NCBI GenBank assembly: GCA_017473085.1
Contig: JAFUNF010000023.1
Location: forward strand, 1 to 48,887
Source of the DNA: Clostridia bacterium
GTDB taxonomy: Bacteria > Bacillota > Clostridia > Oscillospirales > CAG-272
Length of the DNA stretch: 48,887 bases
Direction of reading: 5' to 3'
The first letter of the stretch is position 1. Each line of letters opens with the position of its first letter. The notes beneath the pieces were generated by a model, which did not search any database, had not been told where the DNA came from, and was given only the letters and a program-made list of their open reading frames with translations. Shown here one piece after another: positions 3,789 through 48,795 of the stretch. The translations under genes and the position numbers were made by a program.

Positions 3789-3817
3789 AAAAGAGGCTTA
3801 ATTTTTAAGCCTCTTTT
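3789..3817 (-). terminator. terminator downstream of rtcB
   Basis: AAAAGAGGCTTA pairs with TAAGCCTCTTTT and a T-run follows on the minus strand. It terminates transcription from rtcB after the intervening hairpin array. The sequence could also work in the plus direction. Confidence 0.7.
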
Positions 3818-3818
3818 C

Positions 3819-3925
3819 ATCCTACAAAGTAGGATTTCATCGCTTCGCGATTTCATCCACCATCGGTGGATTTCATCCGTCATAACTGTGACGGATTTAA
3901 TTGCGTGCACGGCAGGCGTGCACGC
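3819..3925. repeat. tandem mini-hairpin array, GATTTCATC linkers
   Basis: Four tiny perfect palindromes stand head to tail: ATCCTAC/GTAGGAT, ATCGC/GCGAT, ATCCACC/GGTGGAT and ATCCGTCA/TGACGGAT. Each begins with ATC, ends with GAT, and is joined to the next by TTC, giving the recurring junction GATTTCATC. A fifth hairpin, GCGTGCAC/GTGCACGC (3903-3925), abuts the rtcB stop codon. The array therefore lies in the rtcB 3' untranslated region, upstream of its terminator. Stem sequences differ but pairing is perfect in every unit. Related arrays occur near 22070, 42722 and 46160. Confidence 0.8.
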
Positions 3926-5137
3926 TTACTTTCCAGATGCCTTGAAGTTATATATAGGCTTTATTACCTTTACAATTTCAACAGTAGGTGTGATTTGAGA
4001 AACGATTGCATCCATATCCTTGTATGCCATAGGTGACTCGTCAAGAGTGCCTGGGCAGATGCAGGTTGTATAGATGCCCTCCATTTGCTTTTTGTATTCC
4101 TCAAGGGTTAATGTTTCCTTTGCAGTGCTTCTTTTTAAGAGTCTGCCTGCACCATGAGGAGCAGAGTAGTTCCAATTTTCGTTACCCTTACCCAAGCAGA
4201 TAAGCGCACCATCACGCATATTAATAGGAATTAAAAGCTTTTCATTGTTCTTTGCAGAAACGGAGCCCTTTCTCAAAATCATCGACTCAGTGTCGATATA
4301 ATTGTGTATTGTAGTAAAGCGTTCAAGCTGAGGTAAGCCTAAAACGTTGATAATGGTGTCGGCAATTGCTTGTCTGTTTAGGGTTGCAAACTGCTGAACT
4401 ATTTTCATATCGTGAATATACATATTAAACAGCTCGCCCTCAAGACAGCATAGCTCCTTGGAGATTGGCTTATTTGCGTAGTCCTTTTTCATTTTGTCAA
4501 GGGTCTGTGCAATTTCATTTTTGGATTTGCCCTGTGACATAAGCTCCTTGGTTACCTTTTCGCTCAGGGAAGCAGGGAAGGTGCGTTGCATTTCAAAGGC
4601 TTGGTTGATATAATATTCTGCAACCTCCTTGCCTAAACGTCTGCTACCTGAGTGTATAACTAAGTACTTGTTTCCTTCGTCGTCCTTGTCAACCTCGATA
4701 AAGTGGTTACCACCACCCAAGGTGCCTAAGCCGAATAGTGCCTTTTCGCCCTCGATTTTATCGTAGCAATAAAGCTTTGTTATGTCGATTTTGTCAGTAT
4801 ATTTGTGGTAGGTTTTTCTGTTCGAGTTGCCTGAGGGGATATTTCTTCTTATACAGTCGTCAAGCTTTTTAAAATCAATATCTACCTTACCAAGACAAAC
4901 TGTTTCCATACCACAGCCGATATCAACGCCTACCATTGAGGGTGATACCTTATCCTTTATTGTCATGGTTGTACCGATTGTACAGCCCTTGCCTGAGTGT
5001 ACGTCAGGCATTATTCTTATTTTTGTTTCCTTAAAGGCTTCATCGTTACACACGTTGAGTATTTGCTTGTAAGCATCCTCGGCTAAAAGCTCGGTGTAAC
5101 ACATAGCCTTGTTATATTTGCCGTATACTTCTATCAT
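3926..5137 (-). CDS. rtcB: RtcB family RNA 3'-phosphate ligase
   Basis: A 403-residue RtcB-type RNA ligase, which joins RNA 2',3'-cyclic phosphate or 3'-phosphate ends to 5'-hydroxyl ends using GTP and manganese. Visible signatures are PDVHSGKGCTIG (residues 44-55), VGVDIGCGM (69-77, metal-binding D72 and C75), GGGNHFIE and HSGSRRLG in the middle, and APHGAGR near 328, whose His is the guanylylated residue in characterised RtcB proteins. The start at 5137 has a GAGGAGAG site directly upstream. It is the last gene of a minus-strand block with a slipin, a P-loop/CYTH protein and two WYL regulators, a context that suggests RNA repair. No archease or RtcA is present. Confidence 0.95.
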   Translation of the reverse strand: MIEVYGKYNKAMCYTELLAEDAYKQILNVCNDEAFKETKIRIMPDVHSGKGCTIGTTMTIKDKVSPSMVGVDIGCGMETVCLGKVDIDFKKLDDCIRRNIPSGNSNRKTYHKYTDKIDITKLYCYDKIEGEKALFGLGTLGGGNHFIEVDKDDEGNKYLVIHSGSRRLGKEVAEYYINQAFEMQRTFPASLSEKVTKELMSQGKSKNEIAQTLDKMKKDYANKPISKELCCLEGELFNMYIHDMKIVQQFATLNRQAIADTIINVLGLPQLERFTTIHNYIDTESMILRKGSVSAKNNEKLLIPINMRDGALICLGKGNENWNYSAPHGAGRLLKRSTAKETLTLEEYKKQMEGIYTTCICPGTLDESPMAYKDMDAIVSQITPTVEIVKVIKPIYNFKASGK

Positions 5138-5187
5138 AATTTTCTCTCCTCTCGTTGTATGTTGTAGAGGGAGAGTTAGGTTAGAGA

Positions 5188-5244
5188 AATGGCGAGTGCG
5201 TACACGTCGCCGTACTGGTGTACGGCAGAGTAGTAGTCGCCATT
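5188..5244. repeat. palindromic hairpin element with conserved head
   Basis: It lies in the 240-bp gap between the slipin and rtcB genes. An outer stem AATGGCGA/TCGCCATT encloses an inner hairpin CCGTAC/GTACGG with loop TGGT. The inner part is nearly the same, in opposite orientation, as a hairpin at 22604-22652 whose outer stem is different but also perfectly paired. The rest of the gap (5245-5377) shows only an ordinary AT-rich spacer with a small GGAATTTTC/GAAAATTCC inverted repeat. Confidence 0.6.
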
Positions 5245-5377
5245 AAAAAGGCGAATACAATTAAAGGAATTTTCAAAAGGAAAATTCCTACCTTGTAAAA
5301 AAGAAAGCTTTGGCGTTTGCCTTACTATCTTGGTGTTTTCCACCTCGCCTTTTGTTCTATAACACTAAATCCGCCCT

Positions 5378-6481
5378 CTAATTAGTCTTGGGATTCTTAA
5401 GAATAGAAACAAGGTCGGTAATTGCGCTTGACCCGCCACTTAGGTTGAGGGTATCAACCTTCTCACAAATACGCTCAAGGTATTCGAGCTCCTTAAGCTT
5501 GTAGAGGGTTGCATTCTCGTCCATAAGCTTTGCGGTGTTAAGAAGTGAACGGGTTGAAGCAACCTCTTCACGTCTTGCAATTACGCTTGCTTGCGCCTTC
5601 TTCTCAGCCATAAGAACGGTATTCATAATAGCTCTGATTTCGCCAGGGAGAACGATGTCCTTTACGCCAGCATCGGAGAAGCTAACGGATAGGGACTCTT
5701 CCTTCTCAACAAGCTTATCAAAAACGTACTTGGAGATAGCGTCCTTATTTTCGAGGATCTCGTCAAGCTTGTACTTGCTCACGTAGTCGCGCATAGCGAG
5801 CTGAGCACAAAGTCTGATTTGCTCCTCGTAGGAATCAACCTCGCTAACTGCCTTTACAGCATCGGTAACACGATAGTTGCAAACGAAGTTAATACGAACG
5901 TTTACCTTGTCCTGAGTAAGAATCTCTTGGCAGGCTATATCCATTCTTTGAAGCCTTGTATCGACTACGCGAGTAGTAACTGATACGCTGTTCTTCCAGA
6001 AGTAATATACGCCAGGCTCAAGAACCTTAACAAGCTGGTTGTCAAGGTATAGAAGTGCCTTTTGATAAGCATCAACTGACACCTTTTGGTAATAGATCGC
6101 AGGGATCCTTGCCATAATTTGTGGAGCAACGTCCTCAATCATGACCTTTGATGTGTCGAAGAGCACAAGCTCCTCGGTGGCATCGGTTTTGAAGTAAACG
6201 TATCTTCCCTCCTTGTAGAAGTTGGTGCCGATACCGTTTACGAAACGCATACCATAGTGTCCCGCAGGAACCTCATATACGTTTACAGCGTTTCTTACCT
6301 CTTCATTAGCAAGAAGAGTGTCAAGAGAACACTTGGATGAGTTAAGATAGGTGTCAATTGGAAGAATTTCAACCTCTCTTTGTCTCCAGAACTTATATGA
6401 GCCAGCAGTAAGAAGCTTTTCAAGCTTACCATCCTTGAAAAGTATGCCTCTTTGATTTTCGTTAATAACAAATCTTTTCAT
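5378..6481 (-). CDS. slipin / SPFH (band 7) domain protein
   Basis: A 367-residue protein of the stomatin-prohibitin-flotillin-HflK/C group. Residues about 1-110 form a beta-rich N-terminal region (KRFVINENQRGILFKDGKLEKLL). They are followed by the SPFH core (RVVDTRLQRMDIACQEILTQDK through VSFSDAGVKDIVLPGEIRAIMNTVLMAEKKAQASVIARREEVASTRS) and a helical C-terminal part that would oligomerise. There is no strong N-terminal membrane helix, which differs from membrane-bound stomatins. A TAAAAGGAGATAAAGAAA leader gives a good ribosome site for 6481. The gene is 240 bp upstream of rtcB on the same strand. From memory, slipin genes recur beside RtcB and Ro60/Y-RNA loci in bacteria; the role here is inferred. 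Confidence 0.88.
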   Translation of the reverse strand: MKRFVINENQRGILFKDGKLEKLLTAGSYKFWRQREVEILPIDTYLNSSKCSLDTLLANEEVRNAVNVYEVPAGHYGMRFVNGIGTNFYKEGRYVYFKTDATEELVLFDTSKVMIEDVAPQIMARIPAIYYQKVSVDAYQKALLYLDNQLVKVLEPGVYYFWKNSVSVTTRVVDTRLQRMDIACQEILTQDKVNVRINFVCNYRVTDAVKAVSEVDSYEEQIRLCAQLAMRDYVSKYKLDEILENKDAISKYVFDKLVEKEESLSVSFSDAGVKDIVLPGEIRAIMNTVLMAEKKAQASVIARREEVASTRSLLNTAKLMDENATLYKLKELEYLERICEKVDTLNLSGGSSAITDLVSILKNPKTN

Positions 6482-6527
6482 TTTCTTTATCTCCTTTTAT
6501 GTATTATTTTCTATTGATATATTAAAC

Positions 6528-6826
6528 GGCATTTAGCCGATGCTTAGCGAAAGCAAGTGTCCCTTATACCAAAAACGGTACGTTGCTTAAGCTTGCAAGG
6601 AGCTAAGGCGGAGCATAATGCCTGGCCGAAGCCCGTTACAAGTGGTATCCACAACATAGCAGGGTCCTTGATATATCTCGGTTAGGGTGGCTGGCAGAGG
6701 GACGGGCTACAACGGGTAGCCACGCCACTCATGACACAAGCCCTACTTATTTACTATCGGCAAAGCCTTTTATAAATAGGTAGGATTTGTAGCTTGCCTC
6801 CATAAAGGAGCACAGGGACAAGTGCC
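6528..6826 (+). ncRNA. candidate structured RNA, about 300 nt, with pseudoknot
   Basis: There is no coding potential, but the base pairing is dense. The ends pair: GGCA (6528-6531) with TGCC (6823-6826) and TGTCCCT (6558-6564) with AGGGACA (6814-6820). A 12-bp helix joins 6742-6753 to 6773-6784. AGCCCGT (6630-6636) can pair with ACGGGCT (6702-6708), crossing GTGGCT (6687-6692) with AGCCAC (6718-6723). Small hairpins include GTGG/CCAC (6642-6652) and GCGAAAGC with a GAAA loop. The plus strand is favoured because a T.G pair in the 12-bp helix and a G.T pair near 6542/6558 become mismatches on the minus strand. A CUUCGG loop near 6624 argues the other way. I cannot assign a family. Confidence 0.5.
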
Positions 6827-6901
6827 AAAATCAATCATGTTTTTATAAAACTTAAATGGTTTCTTTTTTTCTAAAAGAATTTAGTTCCTTTTTTAATCTA
6901 G

Positions 6902-7024
6902 AGATGGAGCCACCAAATGTTTACAAAAACATTCCCACGGAATCGAACCGTAGATTTTTGCAAGCTGATATACACTCAATTCAGTTTTCACCACGACGCC
7001 CTGCGTGAGAAAATTGGTGCATCT
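6902..7024 (-). ncRNA. candidate small RNA with tRNA-like T-arm (Y-RNA-like?)
   Basis: On the minus strand a perfect T-arm is present: UACGG, loop UUCGAUU, CCGUG (6936-6952). The ends of the region pair: AGATG plus CACCAA with TTGGTG plus CATCT (7024-7014 with 6916-6902), interrupted by a 4-nt bulge on the 3' strand. Two more hairpins, AATGTTT/AAACATT (6916-6933) and TTTTC-CACG/CGTG-GAAAA (6985-7013), complete a branched fold. It is not a normal tRNA: no matching 7-bp acceptor stem or anticodon arm fits the T-arm. Paired ends plus a T-arm near rtcB and slipin resemble the layout of bacterial Y RNAs, but no Ro60 gene is seen. A tRNA remnant is the alternative. Confidence 0.35.
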
Positions 7025-7188
7025 TTGTGACATCCGGTCTGTTTTTGACTCGCTGATAAATCACCAAAACTGTCTTGCTGATATAAGTATATGGCACAAA
7101 AAGGTAAAAATCACGGAAAAAAACTTGCGAAGACTGGGTTTTTGCACTTTTTTGGAAATTTTTATAAACAGAAAAAAGAGCAGACACC

Positions 7189-7440
7189 GTAGCGTGATAC
7201 TCTTAACGGAGTATTCACGCTACAACTATGATTGCCCTTACGGGCAAGTTATGAGTTATGAAATGCTACACATTGTTATGATTGGCTTCGCCAAGTTTTA
7301 GATTAGATGGGAAATCATATCATAACGCTTGGACTATCCAAGCTTATAACGGCGAGAGGGACGAGCCTCATAACTCCAAAATAAAAGCTAACAGAAAAGA
7401 GAGGACATTTCGGTATAGACCGATTTGTTCTCTCTTTTTT
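7189..7440 (-). repeat. composite hairpin repeat element, copy 1
   Basis: Read on the minus strand it has three parts. First is a long hairpin starting GAGAGAACAAATCGG and ending CCGAAATGTCCTCTC (about 7399-7435). Next is a string of small palindromes joined by GTTATGA-like linkers, for example TTGGC/GCCAA and TTGCCC/GGGCAA. Last is a terminal hairpin GTAGCGTGA...TCACGCTAC (7189-7223) containing the motif ACTCCGTTAAG. The same order of parts is found at 32451-32712 and 48376-48763, and in short form at 45408-45556. It lies after the stop codon of the P-loop/CYTH gene, where the T-rich flank of the first hairpin may also terminate transcription. Confidence 0.75.
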
Positions 7441-7447
7441 GCTTGTT

Positions 7448-8539
7448 TTATGATTTGATTTTGGCGAGGCTTGCGTTTTTGTATGCCTCGTCATCTGTGA
7501 CCTCTTTGATTATCTTAATTTGCTCGGGAAAGGTGATTGTTGTGTTTTCGTCGCTAAGCTCGATTTCAACAATTGCCTTGTCGGTCCAAAAGGGATAAAC
7601 GTCTATTTCGAAATATTGGTTTTCGTAGGTCAGACAATATCTTGTTTTGCGAATCTGTCTTTTAGTTGTATCTGCATCCATAAGAAGTCGTAGATATTCG
7701 CTTTGGGAAAGTCGTCTTTCAATCTCTACACGCTTAAGGTCAGATACCCTTTTCTTTATTGTTTGGAAATATATATAGCTTCCGTTAATTCCACGCTGGC
7801 GAACACGGACCTCGTCTCCTGTTGTACTTTTAAGGTAGGTTTGAATAATTTCTATTCGTTGGCATGCAGGATTTGATTCAAGCCAGCTAATGTCGGGGTA
7901 TTCTATTAAATATTTGCGTTCAATTTCAAATGGCTCAGGCTCTCCTAAAAAGGTGGAGATTTCCTTAATCAGCCTTTTCATTTTATTATCAAATGTAGTG
8001 GAGTTGTCGATTACACGAAGGTGTGGGTGACCTGTCCATGCAGAAATTAGCTTATCGTCAAGCAAGGAGGCCTCCTCAACTGTTTCAGTTCTTGCAGAGT
8101 TATTAGCAGTTGTATAAAACTCAACAGCACCCTTTGCGGCAGATGTAAGATGAAAAACAGCATCATAGCTATCACGAAGCTCTACCTCGGTTGAGTTTAT
8201 GTCGGAAATAGCCTGCGAAAACTCATCCTCGGTCATATAAGCCTTATTATCAAGAGTACCACGGTCGCACACAATAAGAGCCTTTTCCGCCCTCATTGTG
8301 CCACAGGCTTGCTCAAAAACTCTTTCCTTTTCGATTTGTAGCCTTAACTGACATTTTTGATAATCAAGGTTTGTACCACAGGTCCAAGGAGCAACACCAC
8401 CAGTAATAAGCTCGGTTGCAGTTTCTGGTACAAACAAAACAGTGTAGCCTAACTGGGTAAATGCGTTTTGTATCCAACTCATAGCAGTGGATTTGCCTGC
8501 GCAGGGACCACCTGTAATTACGATTTTTGAAATTTCCAT
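7448..8539 (-). CDS. P-loop NTPase/kinase fused to CYTH domain
   Basis: A 363-residue two-domain protein. The N-terminal half is an AAA_28-type P-loop domain with Walker A GGPCAGKST (10-18) and a Walker B-like stretch ALIVCDRG (87-94), resembling small nucleotide or polynucleotide kinases. The C-terminal half (about 203-355) is a CYTH triphosphate tunnel domain with the metal-binding ExExK signature EIERK (205-209) and further Arg/Lys/Glu strands (VRVRQRG, VEIERRL, FEIDVYPF, AIVEIEL). CYTH enzymes hydrolyse triphosphates, including RNA 5'-triphosphates in some members. The gene follows the second WYL gene by 22 bp on the same strand, so it is probably in that operon. The substrate is not known. 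Processing of nucleic-acid ends is plausible given rtcB nearby. Confidence 0.85.
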   Translation of the reverse strand: MEISKIVITGGPCAGKSTAMSWIQNAFTQLGYTVLFVPETATELITGGVAPWTCGTNLDYQKCQLRLQIEKERVFEQACGTMRAEKALIVCDRGTLDNKAYMTEDEFSQAISDINSTEVELRDSYDAVFHLTSAAKGAVEFYTTANNSARTETVEEASLLDDKLISAWTGHPHLRVIDNSTTFDNKMKRLIKEISTFLGEPEPFEIERKYLIEYPDISWLESNPACQRIEIIQTYLKSTTGDEVRVRQRGINGSYIYFQTIKKRVSDLKRVEIERRLSQSEYLRLLMDADTTKRQIRKTRYCLTYENQYFEIDVYPFWTDKAIVEIELSDENTTITFPEQIKIIKEVTDDEAYKNASLAKIKS

Positions 8540-8561
8540 AAATTTTCCTCACTATATATAA

Positions 8562-9485
8562 TTAATGAAGCTTTTTGAAAAGCTGGGCTTGTTTTTCAAG
8601 TCTTTCCTTGGTAAGTGCAACGAAGGTATCGGGAGCAATAGCACGCACAGTGGGTCCAAAGGATAGAACTCTTATCACAAGCTCGGTTTCGTCCCTTTCG
8701 TTATACTCGATATTTACAAGGTACTTGTCCTTGTCTATGCGAGAGGCTTGCTTTTTAAAGTGGGCAAAGTGGAGCATTACTCGTTCAAGTGCGTTTCGCT
8801 TGTCGTATAGCTCAAGGGTAAGAGTTTTGATTTTTGGCTCACGCTCTTGGTCGGTGAGCCAAGTGGGCGTTGCCACGATTTCGCAAGCTGTAATTGAGGA
8901 CAGATTAACTGTCTCAACAGACCTGTTGCCTATGGCAATAAGTCGAAATTTGTCGTCCTTTTCGGAATATTCAAGTCGTTTAGGAACAACACAGGTGGAA
9001 AAGTGGGTGTCCCTTCTTGTTGTGATTGATATTTTTAAGGCTTTTTCTTCCTTTATTGCATCAAGTATCGTGCGAAATACCTTTATATAAAATTTGCTGT
9101 CGTAGTTATCGTGGTCGTCGTACTTGTCATATATTTCAAGGTCGTTTGGGGAGAATAAGGGCTCATAATTCCATAATTGATATGGAATCTCATCAAGGAA
9201 TAGCTTAATTCTTTTGTCCTCCACTAAGGCTCTTAGCCATCTTAATTGAAGGGAGGTTAAGGGGAGCTTGGGTGGATTTTCAAGGTTAGTTGTATAATCC
9301 TTATTTATAAAGCTCCATCTTTCTTCCTTGATAGCCTGTGATATTTCAAGGTAGCTATCTAAAAATGCGTTTTTGTTAATGATTTCTTGAAGCTGACTCT
9401 TGTCAATAGAGCCAGCTTTAAGTATTTCGTTAATAATTTTTGTAACGGTGTTATAATATGCACCATAAATTTCGTTAAAAATCAT
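8562..9485 (-). CDS. WYL domain-containing protein (second of a pair)
   Basis: A 307-residue protein with a WYL-type ligand-binding region in its middle (LKISITTRRDTHFSTCVVPKRLEYSEKDDKFRLIAIG, about 145-185) and a WCX-like C-terminal extension. The first 100 residues are helical and do not show a textbook winged helix. WYL domains are thought to bind nucleotides or nucleic-acid-related ligands and often control phage-defence, DNA-damage or RNA-repair genes. Its ATG overlaps the stop codon of the upstream WYL gene (ATGA, 9482-9485), so the two are translationally coupled and may form a heterodimer. The P-loop/CYTH gene follows at once. Confidence 0.85.
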   Translation of the reverse strand: MIFNEIYGAYYNTVTKIINEILKAGSIDKSQLQEIINKNAFLDSYLEISQAIKEERWSFINKDYTTNLENPPKLPLTSLQLRWLRALVEDKRIKLFLDEIPYQLWNYEPLFSPNDLEIYDKYDDHDNYDSKFYIKVFRTILDAIKEEKALKISITTRRDTHFSTCVVPKRLEYSEKDDKFRLIAIGNRSVETVNLSSITACEIVATPTWLTDQEREPKIKTLTLELYDKRNALERVMLHFAHFKKQASRIDKDKYLVNIEYNERDETELVIRVLSFGPTVRAIAPDTFVALTKERLEKQAQLFKKLH

Positions 9486-10723
9486 TGTGGCACACCTCCT
9501 TGGTCGTATAGCTTAAGCGTCCTTTCAAAATCCTCAAGAAACTGTCTTTCAACTGCCTTGTTTTGAAAGCTGATGTCGGTTATACGTGTTATAAAGGTGC
9601 GTATCCAAGGAACTATTTCCTGACTATCGTAAATGTAGGCACAGAAGCGTGCGTGGCTTTCGTCAACCATTTCAACAACACCACATCTTTTTTCACGAAA
9701 TAGTCTTTTGTAAATATATTCCTCGCCATTATCTACAAATACTGTAAATTCCACACGCTCGGTGGCGTTTATGTTCTTTTTCATAGAAACACCCCAAATA
9801 TGACCACGCATTTTTTCAAATTGCTCAAGGAGTGCATCGTAAAACTCGCAAGCATTTCCTTGCTTGACACTCTTTATGTAGTCAATTCTAAGGGGGACCA
9901 TTTTTTGTAGCTTGAGGTCGTAAGCCATTAAGTGCATACGTCCGTTTTGGGCACTTGAAAAAATCTTAAGGGGTACAACATCCATTTGTCGTTCTTCCTT
10001 GCCTCTGCTTTGAGTTTTAACTGTGATTTGTAGTCTTCTTCTGATTGAGTCAAGGCACAAAAGCAAAATGTCGCTATCTAAGGCAGAGGTCAAATAATGG
10101 TGCTTAAAGGCAAAGGGGGAGCTTTGCCATTCGTCCCTTTCTAACATAAAGAAGCCTAATGCACCCAAGGGGCTAACCTCGGAAAAGAAAGCGATTGCAT
10201 CATAAAGTGTGTTAAGGCTTAGATCTGTTGGCCTTTTATATTTTACTGTTTTGCCTGATTTTTCGCTTACAAGTATGCCTTGGGCTTCATAATCCTTTAG
10301 CTTTTTTCTAAGGGTGGACTCGTCAAAAAGCTCTGTTACGCTTTTTGAGGACCCTGCAAGACGCAAATTTATGCCCTCTAAAATTTCCTTGTGAGTTAAA
10401 GAAACGTCGGGGGAGTGTAGCAAATCTAAAATAAAAAAGTGAAGAATTATGTCGTTGTCGGTAAAGCTTTTTGATTTAAGTGAGGCGAAAAGTGGGTTTG
10501 AGGCAATATCACGACTATCAATTGAAAGGTATACGCTTTTTCCGTCAAGAGTGCGTGAGGCACTCATAAAGTTACTCAGGTAGCTTTCTATTCTGTGCTT
10601 TTCGTAATCGTAGGATCTGGAGCTTTTGCCTGTGTATTCGTCCCTGTGCTTAAAGCCATAAATATAAAACTCTCTCATATAGTCACGAATTTTTTCGTAA
10701 TTCTTTATAAGCTCAGATGCCAT
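9482..10723 (-). CDS. WYL domain-containing transcriptional regulator (first of a pair)
   Basis: A 413-residue protein. Residues about 85-170 look like a winged-helix DNA-binding region (SLTHKEILEGINLRL... STLRKKLKDYEAQGILVSEKSGKTVKYKRP). The middle holds the WYL core (KEERQMDVVPLKIFSSAQNGRMHLMAYDLKLQKMVPLRIDYIKSVKQG) and the end has a WCX-like extension. It is the first gene of the operon from the promoter at 10756-10784 and overlaps the next WYL gene by 4 bp. It is likely an effector-responsive regulator of its own operon. The start at 10723 is supported by GAAAGGAGACG upstream. Confidence 0.87.
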   Translation of the reverse strand: MASELIKNYEKIRDYMREFYIYGFKHRDEYTGKSSRSYDYEKHRIESYLSNFMSASRTLDGKSVYLSIDSRDIASNPLFASLKSKSFTDNDIILHFFILDLLHSPDVSLTHKEILEGINLRLAGSSKSVTELFDESTLRKKLKDYEAQGILVSEKSGKTVKYKRPTDLSLNTLYDAIAFFSEVSPLGALGFFMLERDEWQSSPFAFKHHYLTSALDSDILLLCLDSIRRRLQITVKTQSRGKEERQMDVVPLKIFSSAQNGRMHLMAYDLKLQKMVPLRIDYIKSVKQGNACEFYDALLEQFEKMRGHIWGVSMKKNINATERVEFTVFVDNGEEYIYKRLFREKRCGVVEMVDESHARFCAYIYDSQEIVPWIRTFITRITDISFQNKAVERQFLEDFERTLKLYDQGGVPQ

Positions 10724-10755
10724 TTTAAGCGTCTCCTTTCTTTAGTCTTAATTAT

Positions 10756-10784
10756 ATTATAGTTGATTTTGTAGATAAATTCAA
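10756..10784 (-). promoter_or_regulatory. SigA-type promoter for the WYL-WYL-CYTH operon
   Basis: Minus strand: -35 TTGAAT (10779-10784), 17-bp spacer, -10 TATAAT (10756-10761). It lies 33 nt before the first WYL gene. Confidence 0.7.
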
Positions 10785-10824
10785 GGCTTGGACGAGGTAA
10801 ATACTTCAATATTCGACTTTTCTC

Positions 10825-10853
10825 TTGACAACTCCCTAAAATAAATGTATAAT
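10825..10853 (+). promoter_or_regulatory. consensus SigA promoter of mscL
   Basis: Perfect -35 TTGACA (10825-10830) and perfect -10 TATAAT (10848-10853) are separated by exactly 17 bp. Transcription should begin near 10860, giving a short leader before the AAAGGAG site and ATG at 10888. Confidence 0.85.
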
Positions 10854-10887
10854 TTTTTTGTATAAAATAATTTAAAGGAGAAAAACA

Positions 10888-11523
10888 ATGAAAAAGTTTT
10901 TTGAAGAATTCAAAAAGTTTATAACACGTGGCAATGTTGTTGACATGGCTGTCGGCGTTATCGTCGGTGGCGCATTTACAGGTATTGTAAACGGACTTAG
11001 CAACTACGTATTAAAGCCAATCATTAACTGGATTTTGGCTTTGATTATCGGTAAGGATGGTCTTAGTGGTGCTATTACTATGCTTCATCCAGCTTGGACA
11101 ACACAAGATGTTGTGAATTCAGAGGGTGTAGTTACAGGCACCGAAAAGGTTTGGGACCTTGCAAACTCCATTTACATTGACTGGGGCTCATTCATTAGCG
11201 CTATCATTAACTTCTTTATTATCGCTTTCGTTCTTTTTGCAATCGTTAAGGTTATTAACGGCTTAAGAGAGGGTGGCGAGGAAGCTAAGAAGGCTAAAGA
11301 GGCTAAGCGTGCACTCAAGGCTGAGCTTAAGGAAAACGGCATCAACCCTAAGGATAAGGAAGCTGTTGAGGCTTACCTTGCTAAAAAGGAAGAGGAGGCT
11401 CAGGCTCAAGCTGAGGCTGAGGCTAAGGAGGCCGAAGAAAAGGCTCGTCAAGAAAGACTTGAAAACCCAACCACCGAGGATCTACTTAAGGACATCAGAG
11501 ACCTACTAAAGAGCAAAAACTAA
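10888..11523 (+). CDS. mscL: large-conductance mechanosensitive channel MscL with long C-terminal tail
   Basis: MscL opens a large pore under membrane tension and protects against osmotic downshock. The N-terminus FFEEFKKFITRGNVVDMAVGVIVGGAFTGIVNGL is the classic amphipathic helix plus TM1 (about 1-45). TM2 is FISAIINFFIIAFVLFAIVKVING (about 100-123). The protein has 211 residues, against about 130-150 for most family members. The extra length is a longer extracellular loop (about 55-95, with DVVNSEGVVTGTEKV) and a cytoplasmic tail of about 85 residues rich in Ala, Glu and Lys (AKKEEEAQAQAEAEAKEAEEK, as one coiled-coil-like helix). It is a single-gene unit with its own consensus promoter and a strong terminator. 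Confidence 0.95.
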   Translation: MKKFFEEFKKFITRGNVVDMAVGVIVGGAFTGIVNGLSNYVLKPIINWILALIIGKDGLSGAITMLHPAWTTQDVVNSEGVVTGTEKVWDLANSIYIDWGSFISAIINFFIIAFVLFAIVKVINGLREGGEEAKKAKEAKRALKAELKENGINPKDKEAVEAYLAKKEEEAQAQAEAEAKEAEEKARQERLENPTTEDLLKDIRDLLKSKN

Positions 11524-11542
11524 TTTATAGCTAACAAAACAG

Positions 11543-11573
11543 AGGCAAGCACGAAAGTGCTTGCCTGTTTTTT
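11543..11573 (+). terminator. mscL terminator
   Basis: The stem AGGCAAGCAC/GTGCTTGCCT is closed by a GAAA loop and followed by six T residues. The hairpin core is identical to that at 14130-14149. Confidence 0.88.
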
Positions 11574-11821
11574 ATTCTACAATGGTGGTGCTTAATGCAA
11601 TGCTTTTGCCTCGTCAAAGCTGAGCAAAAATATAAATAAAAAAATGAAGTTTTTTAAAAGAAAAGACTCTTTATTTATATATGAAAAAGATAAAATAGCT
11701 TGCCTTGACAAGCTATTGCCTAATACGATGGTGATATAGTGTTAGAAATAGAAAAAATTTTTAATTACTTTTTTATACTAATGCTAATCTTAGTTTTTTG
11801 TTTGATATCTTGCTATGTAGA

Positions 11822-11857
11822 TTTCAATGTATTCGTCCAAAGACGAATACATTGAAA
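11822..11857. repeat. perfect 16-bp inverted repeat in a gene-free stretch
   Basis: TTTCAATGTATTCGTC (11822-11837) and its exact complement GACGAATACATTGAAA (11842-11857) surround a CAAA loop. The gene-free stretch 11574-12137 also holds AATAGCTTG/CAAGCTATT near 11695-11718, and is otherwise AT-rich with no credible gene. This hairpin could be a terminator-like stem, a protein-binding site or the remnant of a mobile element. Confidence 0.55.
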
Positions 11858-12054
11858 AATTGATGACTCAGAATGTTTTTTGCCAACTCAGAGCTTTTTG
11901 AAAGTTTTTGAATATTTAGAGGGTAAATATAGTTTTTATGAAGAATTAATGGAGCTCCTACAATCAGTTTAATATTTTTAAGGTACGATGAAGAAGCATA
12001 TGCTTTCACGCTTGGGACGTAGAGTGCTATCGAAACATTAATGAATAACGAAAT

Positions 12055-12083
12055 AGGGCTGACGGGAAGCAATCGTCAGCCCT
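12055..12083 (-). terminator. hairpin downstream of the tetR-type gene, possible terminator
   Basis: AGGGCTGACG (12055-12064) pairs perfectly with CGTCAGCCCT (12074-12083). It is 54 bp downstream of the tetR stop codon on the minus strand, but the following T-run is weak, so terminator function is uncertain. Confidence 0.45.
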
Positions 12084-12137
12084 CAAAATATAGTCGCAGT
12101 GGTCAAAAGATGGTCAGAAAATGTAGGAATAATTATA

Positions 12138-12689
12138 TTATTTCATTCGCTCAATCAATTCTTTGTAATTTTTCTCGCCAAAGGAAGCAAGAAATAATGT
12201 CTCTGCCACTTTTTCAATTGGCTCGGTACAATCATCCTTTACCCATTGTATCGTAATGTTATATATTGCTCCCGAGTAAAAATAAGGAAGTAGCGTATTG
12301 TTCGGCTTTCCTGCATCCTCGAACACAGACAAATACTGTTCGTTAAGATAATTAAGAAGCAAGGTTTCAAGATGTGATTTTATAATGAGCTGAACCATAT
12401 TTTTATTTTTCTCCATTGTGCGAAGGATTGACAGAATGGTATCATAATAATCATCGTCACATCGTGGGATAAAACGGGTTTGAGAATTCAATTCTTCAAC
12501 AACATTATTAAAATGGTAAATCAAAACATCTTCTTTGCTATTAAAGTTACGGTAGAAGGTTGCCCTGCCTACACCTGCCTTTTTTGCTATTTCTGTAATG
12601 CTGATCTCATGAAAGTCCTTTTCTTCCATTAGCTGTAAAACAGCCTCTGAAATATACTGCTTAGTAAAATCTGTGTAATCAATTCTCAC
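12138..12689 (-). CDS. TetR/AcrR family transcriptional regulator
   Basis: A 183-residue repressor-type protein. The N-terminal helix-turn-helix is clear (ISITEIAKKAGVGRATFYRNFNSKEDVL, about residues 29-56). The C-terminal ligand-binding half resembles the TetR_C group with YSGAIYNITIQWVKDDCTEPIEKVAETL. Translation starts at a GTG (12689) preceded by AAGGGGAG at a slightly long spacing. It is divergent from the unknown gene at 12886. The 196-bp gap between them carries four TGTCTCA motifs and a tandem 19-bp repeat, so it likely represses itself and that gene. The ligand is unknown. Confidence 0.9.
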   Translation of the reverse strand: MRIDYTDFTKQYISEAVLQLMEEKDFHEISITEIAKKAGVGRATFYRNFNSKEDVLIYHFNNVVEELNSQTRFIPRCDDDYYDTILSILRTMEKNKNMVQLIIKSHLETLLLNYLNEQYLSVFEDAGKPNNTLLPYFYSGAIYNITIQWVKDDCTEPIEKVAETLFLASFGEKNYKELIERMK

Positions 12690-12709
12690 GCGAACAAAAA
12701 CTCCCCTTC

Positions 12710-12829
12710 TGTCTCATTTAGGTCAACAAAACCATTCGTATTGTCTCATCAATGTCTAAATTGCTTGCAATGAACAACAAAATATATTATAATACAGTTG
12801 TCTCAATGCGATACAGTTGTCTCAATGCA
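12710..12829 (+). promoter_or_regulatory. divergent promoter region with tandem 19-bp repeats (probable TetR operator)
   Basis: The motif TGTCTCA occurs four times in one orientation (12710, 12742, 12799, 12818). The last two are part of a head-to-tail 19-bp duplication, ATACAGTTGTCTCAATGC plus one base, at 12792-12810 and 12811-12829. A plus-strand promoter (-35 TTGCAA at 12765-12770, 17-bp spacer, -10 TATAAT at 12788-12793) ends exactly where the repeats begin, so a bound repressor would cover the transcription start. The regulator is inferred to be the adjacent TetR-type protein. Confidence 0.6.
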
Positions 12830-12885
12830 TTATACATACTTTTATCGAAAAAGTCAAGAAAAATTTAAGAAAGAGGTATTGAAAG

Positions 12886-14019
12886 ATGAAAATTGAAAAC
12901 CCAAAAGTGACACTTTCAGATGAGGCAAGAAATGGTGTAAAGGAAGAAGTCAGAAGCGGATTCCTTGATTGGTTAATGGAATTCAATGTGGAGGGTGATG
13001 ACGGCGAGCTTTACGCGCTCGGTGGTTCTATTCTCTCCCTTGCACTTGAAAAGATGGATCTTGTCAATCTTTGCTATGCTAAAGGAAAGGGCTCTGTCAA
13101 GCAGCTTCGCAATTCGGTATATAAGCTTGCGAAATATCCCGGAACCGTAATGAATAAGTTTTACAGAAATCCACAAGGTACTTTACAGATCGAAAAGAGA
13201 GAGCATAGTGTGCTTGTCACCTGTGCCGAGCATTACAAGGTAGAATGCTTTGATAACGGCACGTGGCATTTGATGCTCGATACCTGTGACGGCGAATACA
13301 AGGCAGATCTTTATCATAGAGCGCACGGATTTCCTCTTTGGTATGGCAGAGAGAAGCCCTCGCTTCTTACACAGCACTCCATTACCTACGGCTACAACTG
13401 GTCGGGTGATGTAGATGGAACGATCTGGTTGAACGGAAAAGAGATCAAGGTTAAAGGAACAGGTCAGCGTGAAAGATACGTTGCCGTTGACTCCTCTGCG
13501 GCGGAGCTTGGCGGTTGGGAGGATTGGGGATATATTACCTTCAATGAGATTCACTCCTCGATGTACGATATGCGTCTCGGAATGAAGGACTACTCAGTAT
13601 ACGATCTTGAAAACGAAAAGCATTATACCTCAAATGGCAACCTTAAGGGTGGCGACAGAGATATCGCCGAGATGGAGATCACACATGAGGATTGGGCATT
13701 TATGCGTGAGCTTGATGGTTTTGTTCCTTCTTACTACAACATCAAGATTAAGGTTGAGGATGGTATATATGAAGCAAGAGCACATGTGTGCAATGCTCGT
13801 GTATGGGGAGTAACCTTCCAAACACCCGATAATCCTGTAGCAACTCTTATTTTTGATAAGGTTGAAGGTTCATTCACGAGTAACAATGGGACTGTAAGAA
13901 CTCTTACGGGTGGTCGCGGTACAATGTCTGTAAGGCAGTGGCATCAGTATCCCAATATGCTTCCTCGCGAGCTTTACTGCGATGATGAGCGTACGGGAGA
14001 AAAGTTTGAAACACTTTAA
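12886..14019 (+). CDS. uncharacterised protein, possibly lipocalin-like (AttH/CrtC-type fold)
   Basis: A 377-residue soluble protein without signal peptide or membrane helices. I do not recognise it with certainty. Many short beta strands with Trp/Tyr/Gly-rich turns (THSITYGYNWSGDVDGTIWLNG is split by such turns; GGWEDWGYITFNE; SYYNIKIKVEDGIYEARAHVCNARVWGVTF) suggest a double beta-barrel, like the hydroxyneurosporene-hydratase/AttH lipocalin-like group. A conserved-looking HQYPN and GRGTMSV lie near the end. The ribosome site AAGAGG precedes ATG 12886. Codons such as ATC, CTC, GCG and GGC appear more often than in neighbouring genes, hinting at transfer. It is controlled from the TetR-type operator region and ended by the terminator at 14130. 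Confidence 0.7.
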   Translation: MKIENPKVTLSDEARNGVKEEVRSGFLDWLMEFNVEGDDGELYALGGSILSLALEKMDLVNLCYAKGKGSVKQLRNSVYKLAKYPGTVMNKFYRNPQGTLQIEKREHSVLVTCAEHYKVECFDNGTWHLMLDTCDGEYKADLYHRAHGFPLWYGREKPSLLTQHSITYGYNWSGDVDGTIWLNGKEIKVKGTGQRERYVAVDSSAAELGGWEDWGYITFNEIHSSMYDMRLGMKDYSVYDLENEKHYTSNGNLKGGDRDIAEMEITHEDWAFMRELDGFVPSYYNIKIKVEDGIYEARAHVCNARVWGVTFQTPDNPVATLIFDKVEGSFTSNNGTVRTLTGGRGTMSVRQWHQYPNMLPRELYCDDERTGEKFETL

Positions 14020-14129
14020 TATCTAATATTAGAGGGGCGATTGCGGTCGGTTTTTAAAATTTGCGGTGCAAAACTGACGAAAAGGAGGGACAGGGGACGA
14101 TTCCTTGTCTTCAAATAACTGACAGGTGG

Positions 14130-14157
14130 GCAAGCACGAAAGTGCTTGCTTTTTTTT
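14130..14157 (+). terminator. terminator of the 12886-14019 gene
   Basis: GCAAGCAC/GTGCTTGC with a GAAA loop is followed by eight T residues. The 20-nt hairpin is identical to that of the mscL terminator 2.6 kb upstream. Confidence 0.88.
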
Positions 14158-14158
14158 A

Positions 14159-14187
14159 TTGACTTGTGGGAATATAAATGATAAAAT
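14159..14187 (+). promoter_or_regulatory. promoter of the first intracellular LRR gene
   Basis: -35 TTGACT (14159-14164), 17-bp spacer beginning TGTGGG, -10 TAAAAT (14182-14187). It closely resembles the promoter at 15207-15235. Confidence 0.8.
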
Positions 14188-14219
14188 AATAGTAACAACA
14201 GCTCTAAGGGGGAGAGGAA

Positions 14220-15173
14220 ATGAGAGATACAAAGAACGAGGGAGGACTCGGTTATAACCAAAAGGGCGACATAGAGCAAATCGTCGACTACCTGATAGCC
14301 GAGCATAGAGATGAATTTGAGCTTGAGCTTTCACAAAAGCTCAAGGGGTTTGAGGCACAGCTTCGAAGTGATTTTAATCGTAGGCTGGAACTTATTAGGA
14401 AGGACCTTTCTGAAAACCTAAAGGGACAGATTGAGCTTATCAATAGAAATAACAACGTTGTTAACACATCGCCATCTATTGCTCCACCGATTGTTGAGTG
14501 CGACTATTTAAAATATAATGAAACGGCAGAGGGACTTTGTATAACAGGCTTAAATGAAAAATATTCAAGCAAGACTGACGTTTACATTCCTGCTACTATT
14601 AATGGAAAAAGAGTTGCGAAAATAGGCGATAATGCTTTTTTAAATAACCAGATTATAGAAAAAGTAGAAATAGCAAACGGAATTGAGACAATAGGCAAAA
14701 AAGCGTTTAGTGCCTGTGCTAATTTAAAAGAGCTTATTATACCTGATAGTGTAACCTCTATTCAAAGAGAGGCCATGTATGCAAGCAAAAAGCTTGAGCG
14801 TGTAAACATACCAAAGAATATAAAGGTCCTTGAGTATGGTGTTTTGTATCAAGCAGGAATAAAATCCCTCGAATTACCAGAGGGCTTGAAGGAAATTGGT
14901 GCTCTTGCTCTTTGTGGCTGTTATGCTCTTCGTCAGATAAATATTCCAAGCACTGTTACTACTATTGGAAATTACGGCTTTTACTATTGCTTCTTTAATC
15001 AAGGAGCAGATGGGGAGATTTACATTCCTGATAGCGTTGCAAAAATAGATGCAGATGTCTTTGGCGGATGCAGATATTTAAAAATCTCCTGTGGAGCAAA
15101 AAGAAAGCCAGCAGGCTGGAATGAAAAATGGAATTCGGGAAATTGTCCTGTTAAGTGGGGAGCTAAATATTAA
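14220..15173 (+). CDS. intracellular BspA-type leucine-rich-repeat protein (LRR 1)
   Basis: A 317-residue protein without signal peptide. Residues about 20-80 are a charged helical coiled coil (EFELELSQKLKGFEAQLRSD and so on). The rest is LRR_5/BspA-like repeats of about 23 residues (IGDNAFLNNQIIEKVEIANG, IGKKAFSACANLKELIIPDS). It closes with a C-terminal cap, CGAKRKPAGWNEKW...VKWG. That cap, of form C-x-A-x-x-x-P-x-G-W-x-x-x-W, recurs in the next four genes. LRR_5 proteins usually bind other proteins and are mostly secreted in bacteria; cytosolic location here is inferred from the missing signal peptide. The start has GGGGGAGAGG upstream. It has its own promoter and terminator. Confidence 0.88.
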   Translation: MRDTKNEGGLGYNQKGDIEQIVDYLIAEHRDEFELELSQKLKGFEAQLRSDFNRRLELIRKDLSENLKGQIELINRNNNVVNTSPSIAPPIVECDYLKYNETAEGLCITGLNEKYSSKTDVYIPATINGKRVAKIGDNAFLNNQIIEKVEIANGIETIGKKAFSACANLKELIIPDSVTSIQREAMYASKKLERVNIPKNIKVLEYGVLYQAGIKSLELPEGLKEIGALALCGCYALRQINIPSTVTTIGNYGFYYCFFNQGADGEIYIPDSVAKIDADVFGGCRYLKISCGAKRKPAGWNEKWNSGNCPVKWGAKY

Positions 15174-15180
15174 AAATCTA

Positions 15181-15207
15181 AAAAGCAGATGCAAGTCTGC
15201 TTTTTAT
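15181..15207 (+). terminator. terminator after LRR 1
   Basis: AAAAGCAGA pairs with TCTGCTTTT around a 6-nt loop and the T-run continues. It separates LRR 1 from the next unit, whose -35 box begins at its end. Confidence 0.82.
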
Positions 15208-15235
15208 TGACTTTAGGGTGTGTTAATGATAAAAT
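15207..15235 (+). promoter_or_regulatory. promoter of the LRR-RING operon
   Basis: -35 TTGACT (15207-15212), 17-bp spacer, -10 TAAAAT (15230-15235). Identical bases with the promoter at 14159 include TTGACTT, GGG in the spacer and AATGATAAAATA around the -10 box. Confidence 0.8.
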
Positions 15236-15266
15236 ATAATAAAGGCTATTTTTAAGGAGGCACACT

Positions 15267-16196: not shown

Positions 16197-16197
16197 T

Positions 16198-17706: not shown

Positions 17707-17718
17707 AGGAGTAGGACT

Positions 17719-18447: not shown

Positions 18448-18457
18448 GGAGACAAGA

Positions 18458-19042: not shown

Positions 19043-19043
19043 T

Positions 19044-20222: not shown

Positions 20223-20254
20223 AAAATACGGGATTTTGAAATCCCGTATTTTTT
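20223..20254. terminator. bidirectional terminator between the LRR-RING operon and dusB
   Basis: AAAATACGGGATTT (20223-20236) pairs perfectly with AAATCCCGTATTTT (20239-20252), with a T-run on each strand. It sits between the stop codons of convergent genes. Confidence 0.9.
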
Positions 20255-21245: not shown

Positions 21246-21262
21246 TTTTGACTCCTTTCGTG

Positions 21263-21291
21263 TTGATTTTTACGTGATAATGTGGTAAAAT
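21263..21291 (+). promoter_or_regulatory. promoter of the fic-type gene
   Basis: -35 TTGATT (21263-21268), 17-bp spacer, -10 TAAAAT (21286-21291), followed by AAAAGGGGG and the ATG at 21326. Confidence 0.65.
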
Positions 21292-21325
21292 ATATATAGC
21301 TAAATTTGAAAAGGGGGTAAATGCT

Positions 21326-21928: not shown

Positions 21929-22000
21929 AAGTCAAGCAATGCTTGGCTTTTTTGTTTAGAGAGTGACCTTTAGGCATGCCTTGTATAGAAGAAGGTCTCT

Positions 22001-22262
22001 CCTTTCGTCACGGCTTTGCCGTGCCACCTTCCTCGTCAGAGGAAGGCAAGGGGGGAAATCTTCACTGAGTGAAGGTGAAATCCGTTGTTGACGGATGAAA
22101 TCACTGCGTGATGAAATCAACGGTGTTGATGAAATCCTTGCAAAGCAAGGGCTAATAACTACCCCTCCGTCACGACAAGTCGTGCCACCTCCCCTGACAA
22201 GGGGAGGCAAGAGAAAGTGGGGGGTGTGACTCATAAGGGTGCCAGACAAGGGTAGGCAAGGG
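22001..22262. repeat. mini-hairpin array plus CACGGC-type intergenic repeat
   Basis: The region holds CACGGC/GCCGTG (22009-22023) and repeated CCACCT and GGGGAGG blocks typical of common Clostridia intergenic repeats. Between 22055 and 22150 is a chain of tiny palindromes (TTCACT/AGTGAA, ATCCGT/ACGGAT, ATCA/TGAT, ATCAAC/GTTGAT, ATCCTTGC/GCAAGG) joined by GATGAAATC, the reverse complement of the linker seen at 3819-3899. No gene is present. Confidence 0.7.
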
Positions 22263-22264
22263 GG

Positions 22265-22441: not shown

Positions 22442-22486
22442 AGTTTTCTCCTTTGTGATGGGACTGCTGCAATAGACGCAAAACAA

Positions 22487-22716: not shown

Positions 22717-22718
22717 AA

Positions 22719-32380: not shown

Positions 32381-32450
32381 TAAAAAGGTTGCTCGAATAT
32401 GGGTGAGGTTCTTAGTGGAGAATTTGCAACTTGACAAAAGTGCAAGCATC

Positions 32451-32712
32451 GCATTTGACTAGTCAAATGCAAATGTGGGCTAAGCCCAACCCCTTATTAC
32501 AAGCAGAAAGAGAGAACAAATCGATTCGTAGCCGAAATGTCCTCTCTTTTCTGTTGGTGAAGTTTTTGCTAACGTAAAAGTGAAGTTAAGTTTGCCCACT
32601 TTGCCGAAGGCAAAACTTCACTCACGAAGTGAACTTCACTATCGCAGATAACTTCACTTGCCCGCAAGGGCAAACTTAGTTATGCGTGTTCTCCGTTAAG
32701 GATAACACGCAT
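32451..32712. repeat. composite hairpin repeat element, copy 2
   Basis: A 262-bp element. It starts with a perfect 20-bp palindrome GCATTTGACTAGTCAAATGC (32451-32470). Next is the hairpin beginning GAGAGAACAAATCG and ending CCGAAATGTCCTCTC, then TGTTGGTGAAGTTTTTGC. A string of small palindromes follows (CAC/GTG, ATC/GAT, GCCC/GGGC) linked by AACTTCACT. It ends in ATGCGTGTT/AACACGCAT (32682-32712) with TCTCCGTTAAGG between. The start, hairpin, linkers and end are shared with 48376-48763 while the internal string differs in length. No protein is encoded. Confidence 0.82.
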
Positions 32713-32732
32713 ATGTGAGCAACCTTTTTTTG

Positions 32733-46159: not shown

Positions 46160-46320
46160 AACCGACGTAGTCGGCTTTTCAGTTATGAGCCGACTATATC
46201 GGCGTTATGATTGACTACGTCAAGCTATGAATTTACTTCGTAAATGTTATGAGTTTATTTCATAAACGTTTGAAGTGAGTTGTTGATTTCATCCAAGGTG
46301 TGCCTTGGATTTCATTAAAG
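46160..46320. repeat. tandem mini-hairpin array with GTTATGA linkers in the GH92 leader
   Basis: Palindromes CCGAC/GTCGG, GCCGA/CGGC, TTGAC/GTCAA, ATTTAC/GTAAAT, GTTTAT/ATAAAC and ATCCAAGG/CCTTGGAT stand in a row. They are joined by (G)TTATGA or, in the last unit, GATTTCAT. The array lies inside the predicted 5' leader of the GH92 mRNA and ends about 15 nt before its start codon. Confidence 0.75.
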
Positions 46321-48375: not shown

Positions 48376-48763
48376 GCATTTTGACTAGTCAAATGCATTA
48401 TGGACTAAGCCTAAACCCACATTATGAGCAGAGCGAATAACAAGGTTCTGCATAGCAGGTTCTTATAACAACAGAACGAGGAAACAAATCGGTTCATAGC
48501 CGAAATGTTTCCTCTTTTTATGTTAGTGAAGTTTTTGCTAACGCAAAAGTGAAGTTGCTACGCGAACCCCCAAAGCTCATACTTCGCTTCGGGGAACCCC
48601 GTATGCAGTGAAGTTCGTGCTACGCACAAGTGAAGTTAAGTTTGCCCACTTTGCCATAGACAAAACTTTACTATCCGTAAGATAACTTCATTTACGAAGT
48701 AAACTTCACTTGCCCATAAGGCAAACTTAGTTATGCGTGTTCTCCGTTAAGGATAACACGCAT
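48376..48763. repeat. composite hairpin repeat element, copy 4 (long)
   Basis: A 388-bp element homologous to 32451-32712. Palindrome TTTGACTAGTCAAA (48380-48393) starts it. The hairpin GAGGAAACAAATCGG...CCGAAATGTTTCCTC (48478-48514) keeps pairing through changes on both sides relative to copy 2. A longer string of palindromes with AGTGAAGTT/AACTTCACT linkers follows. The same terminal hairpin ATGCGTGTT/AACACGCAT closes it. About 125 bp more internal sequence is present than in copy 2. Confidence 0.82.
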
Positions 48764-48795
48764 AATTTTCTCAATACCATTAAGTTAAGAAAATC

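Follow-up and report, generated by a model that had tools for sequence, protein, structure and literature searches.

A hairpin array behind rtcB in a Clostridia bacterium as a probable truncated arm of a palindromic Gut-1 element in terminator loops

In the accessible part of the original account (Weinberg et al. 2010, PMC2864571), Gut-1 is a noncoding RNA known only from environmental sequence, and its motif has conserved UGAAA linkers between three hairpins. As far as their accessible parts go, no other paper on Gut-1 or RF01706 was found among the open-licence full texts. Judged from the listings, the open-licence full texts on terminator-targeting, RAYT, IS1630 and hairpin-repeat topics hold no recognisable account of the element described below. 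IS1630 is an insertion sequence that targets terminators, and some group II introns insert near terminators. REP elements carry the tetranucleotide GTAG or GGAG next to each hairpin.

The window analyzed here is the whole stretch of 48,887 nucleotides of contig JAFUNF010000023.1 from a Clostridia bacterium (assembly GCA_017473085.1; G000, the own genome hereafter). On its minus strand, a string of small hairpins lies behind rtcB at 3819..3925. With a probability of roughly 0.7, this array represents a truncated arm of a palindromic DNA element, here called the Gut-1 element, that is dispersed, non-autonomous and located in terminator loops. The original prediction, made from the letters of the window alone, missed that the array belongs to a larger mobile-looking element, one arm of which is already in Rfam as Gut-1.

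The array shares with Gut-1 RNA the three hairpins with UGAAA linkers and scores just above the Rfam cut-off. Unlike the motif in the accessible part of the Gut-1 account (PMC2864571), the array makes up a single arm of a longer element, which also has a second arm, a terminal palindrome (P0), an internal terminator and a 3′ end. As many as 50 copies occur in one genome, and there are several linker classes. Similar to REP/RAYT systems, intergenic hairpin arrays lie beside a constant short motif. The linkers here, however, are of the TGAAA(T), GTGAAGT, TTATGA, TGATAT and TGAAT types, not GTAG or GGAG; the stems differ within an array, and no transposase gene is flanked by arrays among the loci examined. 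The element resembles MITEs in being short, non-coding and dispersed, in the lack of its own transposase, in its related inverted ends, and in its polymorphism between relatives. It differs from them in the ladder of changing linker class, the terminator-loop site, the internal terminator, and the related ends that also enclose genes (L406 and L458), and no parent was found. For the hairpin elements of mitochondria, we know of no terminator targeting or paired linkers. Repetitive or double-hairpin elements such as the sponge RHE are, in the accessible part of their description (PMC2800124), also mobile and hairpin-forming, but organellar.

The array behind rtcB and its relation to Gut-1

The array occupies the gap between the stop codon of rtcB (gene end 3926) and a bidirectional intrinsic terminator of the host at 3789..3817 (no strand assigned). 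The terminator is kept in the sister species G005. The rtcB gene (RtcB, Pfam PF01139; 3926..5137, minus strand) is directly upstream of the array in the transcript sense. Sequence reading and a hairpin-chain script both give five hairpins in 3819-3925, and all stems are perfectly paired. Counted from the terminator, the first three are ATCCTAC/AAA/GTAGGAT, ATCGC/TTC/GCGAT and ATCCACC/ATC/GGTGGAT. The fourth is ATCCGTCA/TAACTG/TGACGGAT, and the outermost fifth, GCGTGCACG/GCAGG/CGTGCACGC, is set off by TTAATT. The three linkers among the four terminator-proximal hairpins are TTC, or ATTTCAT if the closing T-A pairs are included, which is ATGAAAT on the rtcB transcript strand. The predicted string of hairpins with constant linkers is thus real.

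In an alignment, the array matches hairpin by hairpin the parts P0-P1-P2-P3-P4 of five longer elements: L304 and L307 from the own genome, L224 and L276 from G005, and L159 from a named MAG. The P0-like hairpin is at 3903-3925, P1 at 3875-3896, P2 at 3855-3871, P3 at 3839-3851, and P4 at 3819-3835. P2 is CCACC/GGTGG in four of the six aligned rows; L307 contains a G-T pair and L304 has a shorter stem. P3 is CGC/GCG or CAC/GTG across the rows, and P4 is CCTAC/GTAGG in the rtcB array and CCTGC/GCAGG or a variant in the others. The array is therefore one arm, which ends at P4 and is followed by the host terminator. The units inside one array are unlike each other because every position has its own history. 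The stems had been described as changing freely while pairing is kept. They do differ within the array with pairing kept, but they are not free, as each position has its counterpart in other copies. The rtcB copy is without the 3′ half, so its own insertion is not readable from it.

The covariance model of Gut-1 RNA (RF01706) spans one arm of the element and matches 3829-3903 (minus strand) with 50.1 bits, against a gathering cut-off of 50. Three other copies in the window score 48.4, 46.6 and 38.7 bits, all below the cut-off. The best of these, at 22051-22122, belongs to a second ATGAAAT-linker array with five hairpins (22060..22150, plus strand), which confirms the inverted linker copy predicted near 22070. 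A third dispersed family, of the CCTCCGTCACGAC..GTCGTGCCACCTCCCCT..AGGGGAGGCAAG type, flanks this array on both sides (22010-22250) and is also seen at L307 and L313. A further linker copy had been predicted at 46310. Here, one hairpin does lie between two linkers, GATTTCATC and GATTTCATT (46285..46316, plus strand), but there is no string with that linker. It is beside a separate TATGA-linker hairpin array upstream of a GH92 gene (46184..46252, plus strand).

At E up to 0.001, Gut-1 is present in 44 of 57 genomes, the own genome counted (38 above the cut-off, up to 50 copies per genome). One of 14 control genomes has a match, which is below the cut-off. At E up to 0.01, there are 50 copies in the own genome, 21 in G005 and 16 in G026, a member of the same genus; two control genomes then have matches, again below the cut-off. 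The family claimed in the original prediction is a real one: arrays and Gut-1 matches are found in many genomes, complementarity of the stems is not lost in them, and the arrays are not unique to this contig. None of the 50 copies is on contigs C3 and C8 of the own genome, the two longest seen (363 and 176 kb). Judging from the spacing of matches, the short contigs C16 and C30 of the own genome and C7 and C20 of G026 seem to duplicate stretches of other contigs of the same assembly.

Based on crude ORF calls, 45 of the 50 own-genome copies could be placed, and 42 are intergenic after three inside ORFs were dropped. In 33 of the 42, the gene upstream, seen along the Gut-1 strand, is on that strand too: 17 of these copies are between convergent and 13 between tandem genes, and 3 have no gene called on the opposite side. 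Eight others are antisense between tandem genes, one is without an upstream call, and none of the 42 is between divergent genes. These settings are regions where terminators are expected.

The linker pattern itself is far from random. GATTTCATC is seen seven times in the window against 0.53 expected, a number reached by none of 100 shuffles, and 87 times in the 1.7 Mb of the own genome against 8 for the reversed pattern. GATTTCATY-N4-20-GATTTCATY has 72 matches in the own genome, is present in 25 of 57 genomes (own counted), and has zero matches in controls. Arrays were also sought with a detector that requires a single 5-mer to occur three times, separated by hairpins. The window contains 4 such arrays, and 152 kb of the own genome, selected around its Gut-1 copies, contain 41 with 108 units; contigs C3, C8, C9, C17 and C20 of this genome contain 4 in 396 kb. 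Other genomes gave 18 arrays in 391 kb, in stretches chosen near matches. The 57 kb examined in G005 had none and the 50 kb in G026 had 1, and one dinucleotide shuffle of each stretch gave zero. The linker core is constant inside each array because the detector was built to require it. Between ATTTCAT linkers, 216 of 325 units form hairpins, compared with 418 of 1521 (27%) after arms were swapped between units; this is a wider set that includes chance matches from unrelated genomes. The linker types found include TGAAATC, TTGAAAT, GTGAAAT, GTGAAGT, GTTATAT, TGATAT, TGAAT and TCATAAC/GTTATGA.

The complete element, its turnover and its place in terminators

Complete elements are about 315-336 bp long and contain a terminal palindrome P0, a two-armed hairpin ladder, a bidirectional terminator inside the element, and a conserved 3′ end. 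In order, the parts are P0 (GCGTAGTG.CCTTAAGG.CACTACGC), P1, the ladder, a TGCATTTGTG hairpin, the internal terminator, and the 3′ end finishing in CTGTCCTTAA. By eye, P0 (GCGTAGTGTCCTTAAGGACA) and the reverse complement of the 3′ end (GCGTACTCTTAAGGACAG) are related but imperfect inverted ends. Copies of 332-336 bp are non-coding and dispersed, with unrelated flanks. L356 and L269 are 97.0% identical over 336 bp, and L352 and L202 are 90.7% identical over 335 aligned columns. L375, a somewhat shorter element, has an identical P0 and a closely similar 3′ module, yet its ladder is of the TTATGA class. With a 336 bp query, 55 of 295 genomes of the order give matches, many of them partial. The 3′ motif is present in 14 of 394 genomes, or in 27 of 394 in a looser form. 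Phages and plasmids gave no match, and the exact 3′-module pattern is absent from viral contigs. An open frame adjoins one element.

The linkers of the two arms are usually reverse complements of each other. At 32 places (duplicates removed), two arrays lie within 170 nt; 24 of them have reverse-complement linkers, whereas 1000 permutations of the second arms gave 11.8 on average and never more than 20. Seven share one linker in the same orientation, and one shows neither arrangement. One strand can therefore fold into a linker stem with side hairpins at the junctions. The UGAAA linkers of Gut-1 are present here and, in two-armed elements, can pair with the opposite arm. In predicted folds, left linkers pair with right linkers and the mini-hairpins are at the junctions, most clearly in L346 and only partly in the others. 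The centre (e.g., GAAATTTGCCC) can pair with the 3′ strand of P1 and the following GGGCAAATTTC in 11 pairs, with 96.7% of cells paired and double changes in five pairs; the outer five of these 11 lie within the pattern used to find the elements. P1 is paired in 90.9% of cells, although two of five measures for P1 alone are no higher than in shuffles. The pairing of the centre and that of P1 are mutually exclusive because both use the same 3′ strand.

Three further elements are in the window. The TTATGA/TCATAAC-class element at 7189..7447 (plus strand; P0 7189-7223, internal terminator 7390-7440, 3′ limit approximate) immediately follows GAGCAGACACC (7178-7188), which is a host terminator's left arm. 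At the orthologous site, G005 contains a plain terminator and G026 contains a GTGAAGT-class element between two terminator arms. A GTGAAGT-class element at 32395..32716 (minus strand; P0 core 32684-32710, Gut-1 46.6 bits at 32610-32682) has its limits set by the host terminator arms AAAAAGGTTGCTC (32717-32729) and GAGCAACCTTTTT (32382-32394). Another is at 48474..48764 (minus strand; P0 core 48735-48761, internal terminator 48474-48519, Gut-1 38.7 bits at 48660-48733), with a provisional 3′ limit. In this copy, the loop of one mini-hairpin contains a second small palindrome of the GGGGTCCTCAAGGCGAAATATGAGCCTTGGGGTTC type. Palindromes of this type are also found inside or beside mini-hairpins on contig C20 of the own genome, near 4414-23593 (L037 and L315), and look as if they too insert into hairpin loops.

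Six of the seven two-ended elements, a small sample, are located in the loop of a host terminator. The inverted matches between their flanks are 6, 17, 9, 12, 10, 11 and 13 nt (mean 11.1), while 42 cross pairs of flanks used as controls have a mean of 6.6 and a maximum of 10, with 9 of the 42 reaching at least 8 nt. L202 has no clear terminator at its flanks. The longest flank match of L269 is an A-rich stretch; the arms GAACAGAC/GTCTGTTC are nonetheless visible. Downstream of 26 distinct 3′ ends, a T4 run is seen within 9-34 nt in 25 (20.7% of random positions) and a T5 run in 23 (8.2% of random positions). No convincing target-site duplication was found, as the similarities between flanks are short and imperfect; the flanks in G056 share AATCCGCACCGTA.

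The arrays are gained or lost quickly between relatives. In G005, whose RtcB is 94% identical, the rtcB array is absent, and the terminator, which is the same, lies about 20 bp beyond the stop codon. The corresponding site of G026 is occupied by a different, degenerate string. The block around 22051 is absent from both G005 and G026, the latter having a nearby array of ATTCCATA linkers, and the arrays at 46184-46316 are absent in G005. At four other orthologous places, the hairpin strings of the own genome and G005 differ, in some cases also in linker class. On C20 of the own genome, the sites at 4414, 9561, 19266, 21466 and 23593 have similar surroundings, and whole hairpin stems differ among them, that of the terminator included. 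The site at 9561 seems to have lost units, leaving a mixed hairpin.

The protection of the 3′ end of rtcB mRNA, proposed as a reason for the array, is not supported by these observations. The terminator is kept in G005 without the array, the site in G026 contains a different string, similar arrays are behind many genes, and G-U pairs are rare in the stems. The position of the array between stop codon and terminator is compatible with a side effect on the rtcB mRNA.

A copy of 336 bp is 97% identical between G026 and G056, which belongs to another GTDB family. The flanks are unrelated, and both copies are inside long contigs. CysS of G026 is 90% identical to that of the own genome, and CysS of G056 only 42%. 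Similarly, L197 (G031) and L198 (G044, from a third family) have 240 bp in common at 97%. This near-identity across families appears to indicate horizontal spread, unless the contigs are mis-binned, which could also produce it.

Change of the stems

The alignment A1 consists of 11 complete ladders, all of those found by the linker pattern, with 29 pairs and 317 cells. The helices counted are H1-H3 and the pairing of the centre with the 3′ strand; three other hairpins, poorly aligned, were omitted. The cells comprise 291 Watson-Crick, 0 G-U, 6 A-C and 20 other pairs. In 65 cells both sides have changed, and there are zero one-sided standard changes, although the rows are related and the counts are thereby inflated. 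The covariation score was reached by none of 500 shuffles. Without the 55 cells of the search pattern, the remaining 262 are 237 Watson-Crick, 0 G-U, 6 A-C and 19 other. P1, counted apart, has 2 U-G in 66 cells.

Array units were counted as well (245 usable of 283, selected for at least 4 Watson-Crick pairs and at most 1 mismatch). Read on the purine-linker strand, their inner stems have 1006 pairs: 991 Watson-Crick, 1 G-U, 7 A-C and 7 other. The two linker-adjacent positions have 336: 326 Watson-Crick, 0 G-U and 10 A-C. If outer and inner positions are taken together, there are 17 G-U pairs on the ATTTCAT-linker strand and 1 on the Gut-1-type linker strand. Ten of the 17 adjoin the linker, where ATTTCATT variants are common. 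A looser and partly chance set of units contains 26 G-T and 13 A-C in 764 pairs at positions 1-5 beyond the linker-adjacent pair, and 24 T-G at the linker-adjacent pair on the ATTTCAT-linker strand. This strand bias may come from linker variation, mutation bias or folding of the ATTTCAT-linker strand. As a reference, 87 distinct tRNAs from all loci examined, unrelated bacteria included, have 132 G-U in 1836 pairs (7.2%; ARAGORN drawings).

Covariation in RNA normally passes through G-U. The rarity of G-U in the stems therefore suggests that constraint or copying acts on the DNA itself. Double-sided change without G-U argues strongly, if not finally, against ordinary RNA covariation, and fits DNA selection or templated copying. 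This pattern is what templated correction of palindromes, or very strict selection at the DNA level, would give. The process writing inverted repeats that the original prediction suggested is supported by it, as all 65 changed cells in the 11 elements are double, with no G-U and no one-sided standard change.

Mobility, alternatives and implications

The architecture and dispersal of the element, its presence or absence in sister species, the near-identical copies in two families, the location in terminator loops and the double-sided change of the stems can all be read directly from the sequences. The Gut-1 element probably inserts in the loop of an intrinsic terminator of the host and brings its own terminator, so that insertion would be nearly harmless. 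A trans-acting enzyme would move it in single-stranded or cruciform form, and templated (quasi-palindrome) copying would renew its stems. The linkers may be held by pairing with the other arm and by whatever recognizes the linker class. The rule for linkers would thus come from arm-to-arm pairing and class identity, and the rule for stems from maintenance at the DNA level.

Y1 enzymes act on hairpins in single-stranded DNA. The hairpins could be REP-like and spread by an IS200/IS605-type (Y1, HUH) transposase that recognizes hairpin and short linker, with one enzyme per class. IS200-like Y1 transposases gave 16 matches in 7 of 14 genomes searched, including the own genome. In G053 (L414), the Y1 gene directly abuts the conserved 3′ end; the gene of L417 in G030 has a related end just upstream. 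These are the only two with a related end nearby among the 14 of 16 loci that gave a gene model; by eye, the other flanks examined have neither P0 nor 3′ end. None of the 14 has arrays on both sides of the gene, although contig ends truncate some of these loci. No Y1 match was found in seven of the 14 genomes, including G005, G056, G044 and G017, several of which are incomplete. As only two loci have a related end and several Y1 genes are behind terminators, the association is read as a shared hot spot, and spread by such an enzyme is doubtful. For the same reasons, the G053 gene was rejected as part of a parent element. The IS200-like genes of L410, L412, L416, L417 and L419 are directly behind terminator-like hairpins. 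The RAYT-like Y1 gene of the own genome (L420, C17:2217) is flanked by another repeat, being preceded by repeated GACAGGGGACGGTGGCTTGTCTT units, which also speaks against this mode of spread. Among the end-motif and Y1 loci read, no gene is plainly tied to the element ends as a mobilizer, and no autonomous parent with the same ends was recognized among the end-motif loci returned by the searches.

Gut-1 might instead be a structured RNA, either a small RNA or a 3′ UTR element, whose stems covary under selection on the RNA fold and whose copies spread passively. In its favour, Rfam classes it as sRNA, covariation is strong, and 33 of the 42 intergenic copies follow a gene on their own strand, none lying between divergent genes. 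The wobble pairs are biased to one strand (17 against 1), but this is the strand opposite to that of Rfam. With 0 G-U in the 317 cells of A1, only 1 (Gut-1-type strand) or 7 (other strand) in the 1006 inner pairs against 7.2% in tRNAs, and quick changes of presence and absence, a structured RNA is unlikely as the explanation. Still less probable is the absence of any mobility, with replication slippage and template switching at terminators making and rewriting hairpin strings in place. The differences between the strings of sister species at four orthologous intergenic sites, the differing hairpin and terminator stems of related C20 sites with similar surroundings, and the exclusively double-sided changes in A1 would be expected from it. 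However, a process acting in place would hardly make separate copies whose ends are conserved and whose flanks are unrelated, one of which is near-identical in another family. A group II intron was also considered and rejected: six element loci searched against Rfam (E up to 1) matched Gut-1 and, once and weakly, mir-513, but no intron family.

The Gut-1 element may belong to something larger. In L406 (~1500-2206, ~0.7 kb), related repeats at both ends enclose a lipoprotein-like frame between terminator arms. In L458 (~1500-2930, ~1.4 kb), related ends enclose a lipoprotein-like frame and a DUF559 gene, also between terminator arms. Based on these contents, the larger two-ended elements were rejected as carriers of a transposase; they look more like gene cassettes. 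A tentative extension, possible but not favoured, is a cassette system of gut Clostridia in which related palindromic ends in terminator loops carry either genes and their own terminator, or a ladder. The linkers of the ladder would be swapped wholesale, left and right together, the stems would be rewritten by DNA copying between the arms, and a hairpin-recognizing recombinase would act in trans. If true, such a system would be previously undescribed, and the ladder would be a hypervariable structural domain whose structure is inherited and whose sequence is not.

Regarding the element as probably mobile recasts an Rfam family of unknown role, as Gut-1 would be part of a mobile-looking DNA element that is directed at terminator hairpins and comes with a terminator of its own. 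The ladders are natural data on perfect inverted repeats that are kept while their sequence turns over, and they bear on the question of templated mutation versus RNA selection. Covariation is often taken to signal a functional RNA. A DNA element with strong covariation and few G-U pairs would be a warning, and possibly a diagnostic.
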